A stretch of DNA of 37,713 bases from Anaerolineae bacterium (GTDB taxonomy: Bacteria; Chloroflexota; Anaerolineae; Aggregatilineales; JAFGMM01), in assembly GCA_016927535.1 (NCBI GenBank), contig JAFGMM010000231.1:1-37713 (forward strand), written 5' to 3'. This document shows positions 11,389 to 37,713 of the stretch, in pieces. Numbering within the stretch: position 1 is the stretch's first letter; the number at the start of each line of letters is the position of its first letter. The notes below the pieces were generated by a model. That model was not told the DNA's origin and did not search any database. It saw only the letters and a program-made list of their open reading frames with translations. A program made the translations under genes and the position numbers.

Positions 11389-13302
11389 ATGGGAAAAATT
11401 ATCGGCATCGATCTGGGTACGACTAACTCAGTATGCGCCGTCATCGAGGGCGGCGAACCGGTCGTCATCCCTTCGGCAGAAGGAAGCAACCTGTTCCCTT
11501 CGGTGGTCGCGCTCAACCCGAAGAGCGGGGAGCGGCTGGTGGGTCAGGTCGCGCGGCGGCAGGCCATCGTCAACCCCGAAAACACCGTCTTCTCGATCAA
11601 GCGCTTTATGGGGCGCAAGTTCAAAGACGCCGAAGTGCAGCGCGCCTTGAAGCTCGTCCCCTACAAGGTGACGGCGGCCCCTAACGGCGATGTGCGCGTT
11701 CACATGGGCGACAAAGAATACTCCCCGCCCGAAATCTCGGCGATGATCCTCCAGAAGATCAAAACCGACGCCGAAGCCTACCTGGGCGAAACGGTCACGC
11801 AGGCCGTCATCACCGTGCCGGCCTACTTCAACGACAGCCAGCGCCAGGCCACCAAAGACGCCGGCAAAATCGCCGGCCTGGAGGTGCTGCGCATCATCAA
11901 TGAGCCGACCGCTTCGTCGCTGGCTTACGGCCTGGGCGAGAGCAAAGACGAGACCATCGCCGTGTACGACCTGGGCGGCGGCACCTTCGATATCTCGATC
12001 CTGGACGTGGGCGAGGGCGTGTTCGAGGTGCGCTCGACCAACGGCGATACGTTCTTGGGCGGCGACGACTTCGACCAGAAGATCATCGACTGGATCGCCG
12101 ACGAATTCAAGAAAGACCAGGGCATCGACCTGCGCAACGACCGCCAGGCCCTCCAACGCCTGAAGGAGGCGGCGGAGCGCGCCAAGATCGAGCTATCGAC
12201 CACCATGCAGACCGAGATCAACCTACCTTTCGTCACTGCCGACGCCTCCGGTCCCAAGCACCTGAACATGACGCTCACCCGCGCCAAGCTGGAGCAGCTC
12301 ACCGAAGACCTGGTTGCGCGCTCCATCGGCCCGTGCGAGCAGGCGCTCAAGGACGCCGGCCTGACCGTCAAAGACATCGACGAGGTGGTGTTGGTGGGCG
12401 GCATGACCCGCATGCCGGCCGTCCAGGCGGCGGTTAAGAAGCTCTTCGAAAAGGAGCCGCACAAGGGCGTCAACCCTGACGAAGTAGTCGGCGTCGGCGC
12501 GGCGGTCCAGGGCGGCGTGTTGGGCGGCGAAGTAAAGGACATCCTCCTGCTCGACGTGACGCCGCTTACCCTCAGCGTCGAGACGCTGGGCGGCGTGGCC
12601 TCGCCTTTGATCGAACGCAATACCACGATCCCGGTAAACAAGAGCCAGATTTTCTCCACCGCCGCCGACGGCCAGACCCAGGTCGAGATTCACGTGGTCC
12701 AGGGCGAGCGCCCGATGGCCGCGCAAAACAAATCGCTGGGCCGCTTCATCCTGGACGGCATCCCGCCGGCGCAGCGCGGCGTCCCGCAGATCGAGGTTAC
12801 TTTCGATATCGACGCCGACGGCATCCTGAACGTCAGCGCGAAGGACAAGGCCACCGGGCGCGTGCAGCGCATCACCATCACCGCGTCCAGCGGCCTGAGC
12901 GATAAAGAAGTTGATCGCATGGTGAAGGAAGCCGAGCAGCACGCCGCCGAGGACTCGAAAAAGCGTCAGGAGGTGGAGGTCCGCAACGCCGCCGACTCTG
13001 CCGTCTACAGCACCGAGAAGTTCATCCGCGAATACGGCGACCGGCTGCCCGAAGCGGCGAAGAACCGGGCCGAAGCCAAAGCCGAAGCGGTGCGCAAAGC
13101 GCTTGAAGGCGGCGATATCGAGGCCGCGCGCCGCGCCACCGAAGAACTCCAGCGCGAACTGCAAGAGCTGGGTGGGCAGATGTACGAAGCGCCGGCCGGC
13201 GCGGGTCCTGGCCCAGGCGCGGCCTATGGCGCCGGTCCCACCGACGGCGACACTGCCCCCGGCGGCGAGGACGTGGTGGACGGCGAGTTCACCGAAGCGT
13301 AA
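11389..13302 (+). CDS. dnaK: Molecular chaperone DnaK (Hsp70)
   Basis: Complete Hsp70 of 637 residues, the usual length. It binds exposed hydrophobic peptides in an ATP-dependent cycle driven by DnaJ and GrpE. The ATPase domain starts with [14 protein letters not shown] and includes [46 protein letters not shown] and [14 protein letters not shown]. The substrate domain includes [17 protein letters not shown] and [14 protein letters not shown] helical lid follows, then a Gly/Ala/Pro-rich tail ending [10 protein letters not shown], a variant of the EEVxDAEF ending seen in bacterial DnaK. AGGAG lies 8 nt before the ATG. It is third in the CIRCE operon. A hairpin and a repeat element separate it from dnaJ. 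Confidence 0.98.
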
Positions 13303-13327
13303 AAATTTTAGGTATCGGCGCGGCAGA

Positions 13328-13359
13328 TTCGTCGGGGTGGGCAAGCCTGCCCCGACGAA
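13328..13359 (+). terminator. Hairpin downstream of dnaK
   Basis: TTCGTCGGGG and CCCCGACGAA form a perfect 10-bp stem with a 12-nt loop, 26 nt past the dnaK stop. It is followed by AAAACGTGTAA rather than a T-run. It may attenuate read-through into dnaJ, or be one copy of a dispersed hairpin family (compare 26574-26605). Confidence 0.55.
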
Positions 13360-13436
13360 AACGTGTAAAATGATACCGGAGCACGCAGATGAAACGTAGT
13401 GCAAAACCGGTGTAGATGCTTTGAATAAGGGATACG

Positions 13437-13575
13437 GTTGGCGAACTTGCTCCCCCTCACCCCTGGCCCCTCTCCCACGCTGGGGAGAGGGGAAAAACGC
13501 GCGTGGTTCGGCATGATTCTGGCTCCCTTTCTCCCCTTGTGGGAGAAAGGGTTGGGGATAGAGGGGTTCGCCAAC
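13437..13575. repeat. MITE-like/compound palindromic repeat with 10-bp terminal inverted repeats
   Basis: This occupies most of the 302-bp gap between dnaK and dnaJ, which has no gene. It is a 139-bp unit bounded by exact inverted repeats, GTTGGCGAAC (13437-13446) and GTTCGCCAAC (13566-13575). Inside are two stem-loop modules: one at about 13453-13495 (arms CCCTCTCCC and GGGGAGAGGG) and one at about 13525-13566 (CTCCCCTTGTGGGAG core). The first module recurs at 37668-37713 and the second at about 20315-20359. No transposase gene and no target duplication were seen. Confidence 0.7.
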
Positions 13576-13604
13576 AACATCAATAAGGTTCAGGTGGGCA
13601 GGGT

Positions 13605-14753
13605 ATGGCAGCACAAAAGCGCGATTACTACGAAATCTTGGGCGTCGGGCGCGGCGCGACGAAAGAAGAGCTAAAAAAAGCGTTCCACCGGCTGGCGCGC
13701 CAGTACCACCCCGACGTGAGCCAGGAGCCGGACGCCGAGGCGCGGTTTAAAGAGATCAACGAAGCGTACAGCGTGCTCAACGACCCCGACAAGCGCGCCC
13801 GCTATGACCGCTTTGGGCATCGCGGCATCGGCGTAGACCCCGGCGGCTTCGGCGGTATGTCGGGCTTCCCGGACTTCGAGGAAATCTTCGCCGATTTCTT
13901 CGGCGGCTTCACCAACGTGCGCGACACGAGCCGCCGTCGGCGTGGCCGGGACCTGCACCTTGACCTGACCATCGACTTCGAGGAAAGCGTCTTCGGCGCC
14001 GAAAAAGAAGTCGAGATCAACCGGTTGGAGCACTGCCCGGTTTGCAGCGGCAGTGGCGCCGAGCCGGGCACTTCGGCGCGCCGGTGCGCCGAGTGCAACG
14101 GCACCGGCCAGGTGCGCCAGGTGCGCCAATCGCTTTTCGGCTCGATGCTCTATACTACGCAGTGCCCGCGCTGCCAGGGGCGCGGCGAAGTCGTCGATAC
14201 GCCGTGCAAACATTGCAACGGGTCGGGCAAGGCGCAGGTGCGGCGCACGATCAAAGTCAAGGTGCCGCCGGGCATCGACGATGGGATGCAGATCCGGCTC
14301 AGCAACCAGGGCGAACCGGGCGACTCCGGCATGGCAAACGGTGACCTGAACGTAAACGTGCACGTGCGGCCCCACCAGTTTTTCCGCCGCCGCCACGACG
14401 ATATCATCGTCGAGATTTCGATCAATATCGCGCAGGCCGCCCTGGGCGATAAGATCATGGTGCCGACGGTCGATGGCGATATGGAGCTGAGCATCCCCAA
14501 CGGTACCCAAGCCGGCAAAGTTTTTCGGCTGCGCGGCAAAGGCGTCCCGCACCTGCGCCGTGACGGGAGCACCTCCGGTCGCGGCGACCAATTGGTCGTC
14601 GTGCAGGTGGCCGTCCCCACCCGGCTCACCGCCGAACAACGCGAACTGTTCGAACGGCTGGCTGCGACGATGGGCAGCGAGGTCATCACCCAGAAGAACG
14701 AGAACAAAGGGTTCTTCGAGCGGGTTTGGGATTGGCTGAGCGGCGAGCAGTGA
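13605..14753 (+). CDS. dnaJ: Chaperone protein DnaJ (Hsp40)
   Basis: Full-length type I DnaJ of 382 residues. It stimulates DnaK ATP hydrolysis and delivers substrates. The J domain (about 7-70) has the HPD motif at 35-37. A short Gly/Phe region follows (about 72-102). The zinc-binding region has four CxxCxGxG motifs: CPVCSGSG (144-151), CAECNGTG, CPRCQGRG and CKHCNGSG. The C-terminal substrate-binding domains include KVPPGIDDGMQIRL and LRGKGVPHLR. All residues needed for function are present. The gene follows dnaK by 302 bp, a gap filled by a hairpin and a repeat element, so it may be transcribed partly independently. It converges with the GNAT gene, with only 13 nt between stops. Confidence 0.97.
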   Translation: MAAQKRDYYEILGVGRGATKEELKKAFHRLARQYHPDVSQEPDAEARFKEINEAYSVLNDPDKRARYDRFGHRGIGVDPGGFGGMSGFPDFEEIFADFFGGFTNVRDTSRRRRGRDLHLDLTIDFEESVFGAEKEVEINRLEHCPVCSGSGAEPGTSARRCAECNGTGQVRQVRQSLFGSMLYTTQCPRCQGRGEVVDTPCKHCNGSGKAQVRRTIKVKVPPGIDDGMQIRLSNQGEPGDSGMANGDLNVNVHVRPHQFFRRRHDDIIVEISINIAQAALGDKIMVPTVDGDMELSIPNGTQAGKVFRLRGKGVPHLRRDGSTSGRGDQLVVVQVAVPTRLTAEQRELFERLAATMGSEVITQKNENKGFFERVWDWLSGEQ

Positions 14754-17994: not shown

Positions 17995-20900
17995 TTACGG
18001 CGCATCGCTTGCCCAAATCGTGAGCGTCTGGCCGCGCGCCGCCAGCGCCGGGTCGAGAATGGGCAGCGGGCGGCCGGTGAAGTGATCGTACACCAGCAGT
18101 TCGAGCCGGGCGCGCTGACCTTCGGCTGCCTGGTCCGGAGCGACCAGCGTGTGCCGGTCGGTGACTGTGCTGCCCCACGTCCACTTGAGCGTAGGGATCG
18201 CGCCGGTCGCCGGGACGTGATCGCTCTGCGCGCGCCATGCCCATTCGCTTTCTATTAAGTCTACTTTAACTACGTCATCTTCTGCCAGTGGGTACGCCGC
18301 GCGGAAGCGCAGCGCCGTCTCGATGCGCGCGCCCGGCGTTAAAGCCGGCGGCGCATCGACCTGTACGCCGGTCAGCACGACGCCGCTCCCCAGCGGTACG
18401 TAGCGGTCGCCGGGCTGCGGGCCGGGCAGATCAACGCTGTAGCCCACCGCCAGGCCGAACGGCCCCATCACACGTTGGAGGCAGAGGCAGTCGGCGGCCT
18501 GGAGCGCCAGCCGCACCCGGTCGATACCGGGCGGCAGGTCGTGCGCGGTGCTGAAGTAGTCGCCGGGGTGGGCGCGGAAGCGCTGCTCGTCCAGCGCCAC
18601 ATCGCCCCGGCTCAGCGTGATATCGTAATCGGCCCAGCCCGCCGCGCCCCGGTAAGACCAGTGCAGGTACAGGCGCGCGCGCCCCGGCAGCGACAAATCA
18701 TAATCGTAGCCGGTCAGCGTCAGGCCGTCCTCGAAACGGTCGTGGCGCGGGTGCTCCGTGACCACGGGCAGCGCCGCTCGCGGCGATGCGCCGCCGTCGT
18801 AGCGCGCAATGCGCACGCGCGCGCCGCCTTCGGCTGTGAGCAGCGGCGTGATGCCGTCGATCCCCTGCGTGTACAACCCGGCCCACAGCTCGACGCCGGC
18901 CGGCAGCCGGTCGAGCGTGTAGCGCGCCAGGAGGATATCGCCGGGCCGCGCCTGCGCCGCCGCGAGCCGTACATCGTCCTGGCGCACCACCTGCCCCGCG
19001 CCGTCGACGGCGTGAATGAAGCTCGTCACATCTTGCCCAGGCGTCACATCGACCCGCCACGCCAGCGTCACCGTAACCGGCGCGTAGCCGCCCGGCGCGT
19101 CGATGCGCGGCCCGCCGGCCAGTCTCACGCCGCCCGCAAAGTCAACGGCCAGCGGCGGCAGTTCCGGCGGGATATCGCGGCGCGGCGCGCGGCGCACCAC
19201 CCAGCCCGGCCCGCCGACCTGCGGCTCGAAGACGCAGCCGCTCGCCGCGTAGGCGTCGGGGTAGTAGCTCTGCACCACGACCGGACGGCCCGCCGCCAGG
19301 TACTCGCCGGCCCGGCGCGCCCACGTCGCCGCGAGCGGCTCCGCGCCGGCGGGGTAAACGTACACGACTGCTACATCCGGGCGGCGCGCCTCGATCTCTT
19401 GCAGATACCACAGCGCCGTGCTCCAGTGCCAGTTGGCGAGCAGCACAGCGTCCGGCGGCGCGGCGTCGAGCAGGCTCTCGGCGAAGCGGCGCGTGTGGGC
19501 GTCGCCGGCGCGGTAGACCATGCCGGGGAGGTTCGCGGCGGCGGTCAATGCGCCGCCCAGTAAAACCAGCGCGGTCAGAATATTCACCACGGAGACACAG
19601 AGGACACGGAGAGAAGAAGACGGAGAGGAATGTATAGAAAACTCTGCGCCCTCTGTGTCTCTGTGGTGAAAATCTTCTTTCCTCCCCCACGTCCCGACCA
19701 GCCACCCCACGCCCGCCGCCAGGCACACGTAGGCCGGGATCATGTACTCGACGGTCTGCGGCGCGCGGTAGGTGGCCGCGACGAAAGTATGCAGCGCAAA
19801 CGCGCCGCCCAGCGCGAACAGCAGCCCGCGCGCCCGCCACAGCATCAACAGCGCCGCCAACAGCGCCGCCGCCAAGACCAGCCCGTGCCACTGGAACGCC
19901 AGCACCTCGCCGAGCGTGCGCAGCCGGGCGAGCAGTTCGTCCGGCGCGCGCACGTAGAACAGGTCGCCGGCGAAGCCGCGCGCCAGCACGTGCTGCCAGA
20001 AGCCCGCCCAGGTGCGCAGGTCCGCGCCGATTCGGTCAACCGCCGGGCCGAGCGCCGCCGCGCGCAGCGGCAGGTAGAGCCACGGGAGAAATCCCAGCGC
20101 GAAGGCGATGCCCGGCTTGAGCCAGCGGCGCGGCGCGCGCAGCAGCGACCGGTCGGCGGCGAGCAGCGCCAGTACGAATATCCCGGCGACGAAGACAATC
20201 GAGGCGTGGTGCGTAATGCCAAGCCCCAGACAGAGCGCGAAGCGGGTGAGTTTCCCCTCTCCCCTAAATCCCCTCTCCCACAAGGGGAGAGGGGACTTTC
20301 GGAGCGCGCTCCGGCCCCCTTTCCCCCCTTGTGGGGGGAAGGGCTGGGGATAGGGGGGGGGATAGGGGGTGTTTAGAGAAGCGGCAGCCGCCCGCCGGTA
20401 GGCCAGCAGCGCATCCAACAGCAGCGCGACGAAAAGCGCGGTCATCGGGCGGACGCCGGCCTGTGCGGCGGTGGTCCAAAAGCTGGTCGCTGCGCCAAGC
20501 ACGAGCGCGGCGGCAAGCCCGGCCTGCGGCGAATGCGTCTCGCGGCGGACGGCGCGGCACACCACGGCGAGCGCCAGCGCGGCGCTCAGCGCCGAGAACA
20601 GATTCGCGCGGTGCGCCGGCGCGCCCGGCAAGAACTGCCCGAACAGCCAACCGAGAGCAGTATAGAGCGGGTAGCCGGGCGGGTGCGCGATGCCCAGCCC
20701 GGCCAGCGTGAGTTGAAATTCGCCCTCGTCGGCGGGCAGCAGGCCGGGCGCGCCGGTCGCGGTGTAGACGGCGAACGCGGCCAGCACGACCAACACCTCC
20801 CAGCCCATGCCGTCCGGGAGGCGCGCCGCCGCCAGCCACGCCGCCAGCGCCAGCACGCCCGTGACGCCGGCGGCTGCCGGGTCGGCGCCGGGATACAGGA

Positions 20901-37667: not shown

Positions 37668-37713
37668 CCCCTCACCCCCTGGCCCCCTCGCCCACGCCGG
37701 GGCGAGGGGGAAA
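37668..37713. repeat. Copy of the C/G-run stem-loop repeat at the window end
   Basis: CCCCTCACCCCCTGGCCCCC begins a copy of the first module of the dnaK-dnaJ element (13453-13495). The stem differs by paired changes (CTCTCCC/GGGGAGAG there, CTCGCCC/GGGGCGAG here). The window ends at or near its end. The 37591-37667 stretch upstream of the fusion gene shows nothing else clear. Confidence 0.75.

Follow-up and report, generated by a model that had tools for sequence, protein, structure and literature searches.

A probable IS1182-family miniature element inserted between dnaK and dnaJ in an Anaerolineae bacterium

Results

The DNA analysed here (the window) is a stretch of 37,713 nucleotides, contig C386 of a draft genome (G000) made up of 425 contigs and 89% complete. 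It carries dnaK and dnaJ separated by a gap of 302 bp (Table 1). Within this gap, GTTGGCGAAC at 13437-13446 and GTTCGCCAAC at 13566-13575 enclose two GC-rich palindromes. A first-pass annotation of the sequence had described these as the exact 10-bp terminal inverted repeats (TIRs) of a MITE-like element lodged between the two genes. The 10-bp repeats are indeed present, but the inverted repeat continues for 6 bp outward on each side (GATACG-GTTGGCGAAC and GTTCGCCAAC-AACATC), so that the borders lie at 13431-13581. The TIRs are 15 bp long, not 10: in comparison with other copies from the same genome, both ends have the consensus GATGCTGTTGGCGAA, after which comes C, A or T. Thus, this copy is a non-coding element of 151 bp, too short for a transposase gene, with 15-bp TIRs and a flanking AATAAGG duplication. 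The dnaJ start codon lies 23 bp beyond its right end. No match was obtained with Rfam at gathering thresholds across the whole window, and the ten of 46 results listed in a literature search with the TIR sequence contained nothing relevant. A separate hairpin that follows dnaK was considered as a dispersed repeat and rejected, as it is single-copy within the ~385 kb of the genome examined.

Table 1 Features of the dnaK-dnaJ region of the window
Feature	Position	Strand	Basis
dnaK, 637 aa, HSP70	11389..13302	+	PF00012, E 5.7e-261
Hairpin after dnaK, 14-bp stem, no T tract, outside the MITE	13328..13359	+	
Left target-site duplication copy, AATAAGG	13424..13430	.	Identical 7-mer on either flank
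Left TIR, GATACGGTTGGCGAA (family consensus GATGCTGTTGGCGAA)	13431..13445	+	Common to dozens of genome copies
Entire MITE, 151 bp, type A (TIRs and palindrome cassette)	13431..13581	.	Sister copies over the full length in the genome, identity up to 96%
Interior cassette, two inverted palindromes, CCCCTCTCCCAC..GGGGAGAGGGG and CCCTTTCTCCC..GGGAGAAAGGG	13453..13566	+	Occurs also without these TIRs
Right TIR (GATGTTGTTGGCGAA on the minus strand)	13567..13581	-	
Right target-site duplication copy, AATAAGG	13582..13588	.	Identical 7-mer on either flank
dnaJ, 382 aa	13605..14753	+	DnaJ, DnaJ_C and DnaJ_CXXCXGXG domains

Other copies with the same ends were sought in the genome and found. A 139-bp query returned at least 48 matches (40 of 288 candidates scored), some of them covering the full length with 96% identity, and a search with the 15-bp TIR allowing up to 2 mismatches gave 79+82 matches against 17+11 for the reversed control, i.e. 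about 130 ends above background, all among the matches listed. Together, these results indicate that the repeat is not due to chance. From the loci fetched, 28 TIR pairs could be assembled. Of these, 14 belong to type A, which measures 148-158 bp and has the interior of the window copy, and 13 to type B, which measures 100-118 bp and has GTAGGGGC...GCCCCTAC palindromes inside; one pair is of another kind. The most similar type A pairs among them are 94-97% identical. Besides the 27 type A and type B pairs, many further TIR ends sit at contig breaks and numerous contigs terminate inside copies of the element, as expected when a repeat has many copies and the draft is fragmented.

Target duplications flank most of the copies that could be scored. 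When the left and right flanks of the same copy were compared, 20 of 26 scorable copies reached a duplication score of at least 5, a score attained by 0.6% of randomly re-paired flanks. The well-scored duplications are 5-7 bp long, mainly 6 or 7 bp, and comprise AATAAGG, CTTGAC, ATTGAT, ATATAC, TCTTACC, ATGAATT, GTTAAT, ATTGAC, ATTATC, TCGTGA, ACCCTGT, ATGACAT, GCTTGT, ATTAGG and ATTCCA. At one locus (L003:1495-1773), a type A and a type B MITE are adjacent and the single ATTGAT between them serves as target duplication of both; apparently, one MITE used the duplication made by the other as its insertion site. Several type B MITEs are broken within their GTAGGGGC palindrome at contig ends (L100, L103, L105, L107, L116, L117 and L119), and the interrupting sequence begins ATATGCATCAACTTAAG or ATGCACATCAACTTAAG. 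It looks like a further element, itself present in multiple copies, that inserts into these palindromes.

We then compared the dnaK-dnaJ gap with that of relatives. Removal of 158 bp (the element and one copy of the duplication) leaves 144 bp, and the predicted gap before insertion, without the 151 bp, would read ...TTTGAATAAGGTTCAGG.... The nearest relative, of the same family (G001), has a gap of ~130 bp without the element; the interval is thus not conserved, and G001 offers a family-level counterpart of the empty site that the first-pass annotation had proposed to look for. The closest DnaJ matches among the genomes searched reach ~57% or less. With its sister copies sharing the same ends, its target duplication and its absence from the gap of the nearest relative, the MITE-like insertion first proposed is borne out. 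Across 77 adjacent dnaK-dnaJ pairs, among them that of the window, gap lengths run from 0 to 395 bp. An assembly artefact, in which contigs were mis-joined at a collapsed repeat between the two genes, is hardly credible: the draft is fragmented and several contigs end inside these repeats, but neither the matching AATAAGG flanks nor an adjacency of dnaK and dnaJ as in the relatives would be expected at a mis-join.

Other repeats occupy the same gap elsewhere. Three other dnaK-dnaJ gaps hold a repeat of the CCCCTCTCCC type, exact or nearly so, and several hold GTAGGGGC. Since other relatives of the order have unrelated repeats there, this gap seems to be permissive and to accept repeats. We also observed that the window contains, at 19580-19673, an inverted repeat (ATATTCACCACGGAGACACAGAGGACACGGAG / CTCTGCGCCCTCTGTGTCTCTGTGGTGAAAAT, 84% complementary, 30 bp apart), and that another genome (L230 in G017) has a similar repeat between its dnaK and dnaJ.

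The first-pass annotation had further suggested that the element splits the chaperone operon and could add a terminator, a promoter or an mRNA-stability signal. A scan of positions 13250-13660 for promoters and terminators yielded no sigma-70-like promoter and no T-tailed terminator. In the relatives, a hairpin followed by at least 4 T was present in 11 of 57 gaps of at least 60 bp, against 0.1 in shuffled sequences, and TANAAT was present 12-75 bp upstream of dnaJ at 33 of 111 loci, against 8.9 expected. In this group, a separate promoter for dnaJ is probably common. Since the scan found neither signal in the window gap and relatives of the order often already have a terminator and a probable dnaJ promoter between the genes, neither the splitting of an operon nor the addition of a terminator or promoter is supported; an effect on mRNA stability may still apply.

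We next turned to the origin of the TIRs. A TIR scan across 298 genomes of the class identified longer elements. In one genome (G020), an ORF of 544 aa (P0003) abuts the TIR at a contig end; its product matches NF033551 (transpos_IS1182) with 306.5 bits against a cut-off of 270 and contains the Pfam domains PF13751 (DDE_Tnp_1_6) and PF05598 (DUF772). In a second genome (G052), an element of 1710 bp (L191:1404-3113) has an exact 15-bp TIR at both ends and the target duplication TGTCGCA, and its coding region matches P0003 over most of the length of this query. In a third (G053), an IS1182-type element of 1751 bp (L180:1464-3214) shows 1-2 mismatches in its TIRs, and the transposase frame is broken. 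A perfect inverted repeat of 14 bp (TTCTTCCGCACTTT/AAAGTGCGGAAGAA) directly abuts the TIRs of this element and there is no target duplication, in contrast to the loop-duplicated copies of G000 described below. Thus, complete IS1182-family transposons of order-level relatives carry the same TIR as the window element, which identifies the latter as an IS1182-type MITE. In its own genome, neither protein search nor NF033551 detected an IS1182 transposase; with an assembly of 89% completeness that is interrupted at these repeats, a missing match does not show that the gene is absent. The assignment is based on the ends, the duplications and the transposases of relatives, and not on a resident partner.

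The interior of the element has a distribution of its own. The first-pass annotation had listed relatives of it at 20251-20375 and 37668-37713. These are real, but consist of the interior cassette only: one copy without these TIRs at 20254-20358, and a half copy at 37668-37713 that ends at the contig end. A further partial copy of the right-hand palindrome, 63% in register, was noticed at 65-113. Parts of the cassette are present in many relatives of the order. The paired stem changes reported between copies hold for the right hairpin, where the pairing is C-G in 42 cases, T-A in 10 and other in 2 (a tally that counts both strands), and for the left stem of the copy at 37668, where T-A becomes G-C; they do not hold for the left stem in general, which frequently has an uncompensated T.C mismatch.

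The same cassette also occurs in other frames in this genome. In a second frame it lies between GGGTGCACGAAYGAC ends (L014:1477-1652; the L015 match spans 1501-1622 with ~30 bp on either side), with a 9-bp duplication, AGCGGGCGA, on both sides of L014 and a similar, shorter flank match at L015. In a third context (L017, L018, L019 and L030), the ends are CTAGTRCA or resemble CTAGTRCAGCGCGGCGGAARTA, and no clear duplication is seen. Taken by itself, the interior has the organisation of a REPIN, i.e. two inverted REPs forming a hairpin. The payload between the TIRs is a REP/REPIN-like palindrome pair that also occurs alone.

Could the whole element then be a REP/REPIN moved by a RAYT (HUH tyrosine) transposase, the GTTGGCGAAC ends being incidental? 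The inverted palindrome pair of the interior, and the pairs devoid of TIRs in many relatives of the order and in the genome itself, would suit such an origin. However, TIR-bearing copies have target duplications of 5-7 bp, as is usual for DDE transposition but not for IS200/RAYT; two distinct interiors, those of types A and B, are found between the same TIRs; and Y1_Tnp matches in the genome are weak (one just over the cut-off, one below). We therefore consider a RAYT origin highly unlikely.

Finally, we analysed the insertion sites. The palindrome pattern CTCKCCAYNNNRTGGMGAG occurs at 263 sites in G000 against 0 for the reversed control, among the matches listed. This family of hairpins is REPIN-like, with a variable 3-nt loop, and is among the most frequent repeats seen in the genome; its members (e.g. 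L010:1874-1947 and L101:233-323) are often paired ~55 bp apart within an outer ACCTCACCCC...GGGGTGAGGT palindrome. In the fetched loci, 26 of 74 distinct TIR ends abut a CTCKCCAYNNNRTGGMGAG hairpin when read by eye; a one-mismatch rule gives 30 ends, four of which look spurious. Under uniform insertion, simple arithmetic predicts far fewer than one such site. In the fully assembled hairpin-site copies, the duplicated 7-mer has the form A-Y-NNN-R-T and corresponds to the loop plus two stem pairs (e.g. ACCCTGT, ATGACAT). One hairpin-site copy (L109) has inverted, not direct, 7-mers. Outward flanks at 120-320 nt are nearly all unique (a 13-mer was common to 1 of 231 pairs), which argues against the copying of one nested unit.

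Sites outside CTCKCCAYNNNRTGGMGAG hairpins, the window's included, showed no palindrome excess, their stems not exceeding the control mean. At the window copy itself, the site TGAA-TAAGG-TTCA has only a 4-bp stem, which 11% of re-paired controls attain, and so does not stand out from these controls. The case for a stem-loop target, as reported for some IS1182-family members, is strong for many other copies, namely those in REP-hairpin loops.

The RNA fold of the element was predicted as well. Two palindromes exist, as first described, but the best fold is not a pair of stem-loops: the TIRs close a single long hairpin, at -81 kcal/mol for the element, against about -55 kcal/mol for the two halves folded separately. 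With flanks, the predicted fold reaches -91.9 kcal/mol (z -3.6). A long structure of this TIR-closed kind is usually the best fold of the MITE.

Discussion

On the evidence of its ends, flanks and relatives, the feature between dnaK and dnaJ is very probably a non-autonomous IS1182-family MITE that inserted ~20 bp upstream of the dnaJ start and duplicated AATAAGG. An IS1182-type transposase recognising the 15-bp end GATGCTGTTGGCGAA would have moved it in trans, a step that we infer since no such gene was found in the incomplete assembly. What is added to the first-pass annotation is the family assignment and the exact borders: for a dispersed repeat of a little-studied bacterial genome, both the exact ends and a named family of transposons are now given, and one of its insertions lies just ahead of a core chaperone gene.

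What might the insertion do there? With no promoter or terminator found in the gap, we assume that transcription crosses the element, which may be transcribed with dnaK, dnaJ or both. If so, a very stable hairpin of ~150 nt would follow the stop of dnaK and precede the dnaJ ribosome-binding site, and may be a substrate of RNase III or slow exonucleases; such processing would loosely uncouple dnaK and dnaJ mRNA. By analogy, it is plausible that this dnaJ-leader hairpin is processed in the manner of the Neisseria Correia elements. At least partial uncoupling of the two genes probably predates the element and, with no recognisable promoter or terminator in it, a near-neutral insertion into a permissive gap is quite possible and fits the data equally well. 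Any effect on dnaJ is probably modest.

A stronger version goes beyond the first-pass annotation, in which the element could set the DnaK:DnaJ ratio: the element would have been selected as a regulatory device, whether terminator, promoter or thermosensor, that tunes this ratio. This version draws its support from position (23 bp before dnaJ) and from the stability of the predicted hairpin, together with the Correia precedent (PMC10969869). It is unlikely, given that no promoter or terminator match was obtained, that the same gap holds unrelated repeats in other relatives of the order and that terminator-like signals after dnaK and TANAAT motifs before dnaJ are found among the relatives.

Perhaps more interesting than the locus itself are two by-products: the insertions in REP-hairpin loops and the cassette common to different MITEs. 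We put forward, tentatively and with slightly more doubt than belief, a joint proposal. Firstly, IS1182-type insertion may have two outcomes, an ordinary one with a 6-bp duplication and one in the loop of a REP hairpin (CTCKCCAYNNNRTGGMGAG) with the 7-nt loop region duplicated. Secondly, one cassette may ride in at least two MITE types with differing ends and duplication lengths, so that transposons would act as interchangeable carriers of REP pairs. On this proposal, the common cassette would show REP pairs carried by unrelated MITEs, and the loop-duplicating insertions would form a natural data set on stem-loop recognition by IS1182-type transposases.

Several known systems resemble parts of what is described here. 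In Neisseria, the Correia elements (CREE/Nemis) are MITEs (PMC2649163), and their cleavage by RNase III alters mRNA (reviewed in PMC10969869). They share with the window element a gene-adjacent position, TIRs and a long hairpin if transcribed; they differ in that a promoter was not found here and in sequence, which is unrelated. The MITEs paired with ISMac2 in Methanosarcina acetivorans, of 160 and 169 bp and of the IS1182 family, have repeat sizes (inverted and direct) of 25-26 and 0-4 bp (PMC3852290). Like them, the elements described here are short and non-coding, have TIRs that match an IS1182 transposon and exist in several to tens of copies; unlike them, they have 15-bp TIRs, duplications of mainly 6-7 bp, an interior palindrome cassette common to other elements, and as host a bacterium whose DnaJ matches place it near Chloroflexota/Anaerolineae. 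As in the REPINs and GTAG-tagged REPs described in PMC3116915 and PMC3733652, the interior consists of two inverted palindromes, type B interiors having GTAG-GGGC...GCCC-CTAC pairs, whereas here DDE-type TIRs and target duplications enclose the palindromes and a clear RAYT was not found. A parallel to the hairpin sites is IS1272 of Staphylococcus, a member of the same transposase family that also targets stem-loops. In the work of Wan et al., the stem-loop is replaced with no target duplication, and loop duplication is drawn as an alternative pathway (PMC5678879). Here, in contrast, many copies lie in the loop of a hairpin and the 7-nt loop region has been duplicated, corresponding to the hypothetical pathway c of those authors, while other copies occupy ordinary sites with 6-bp duplications.
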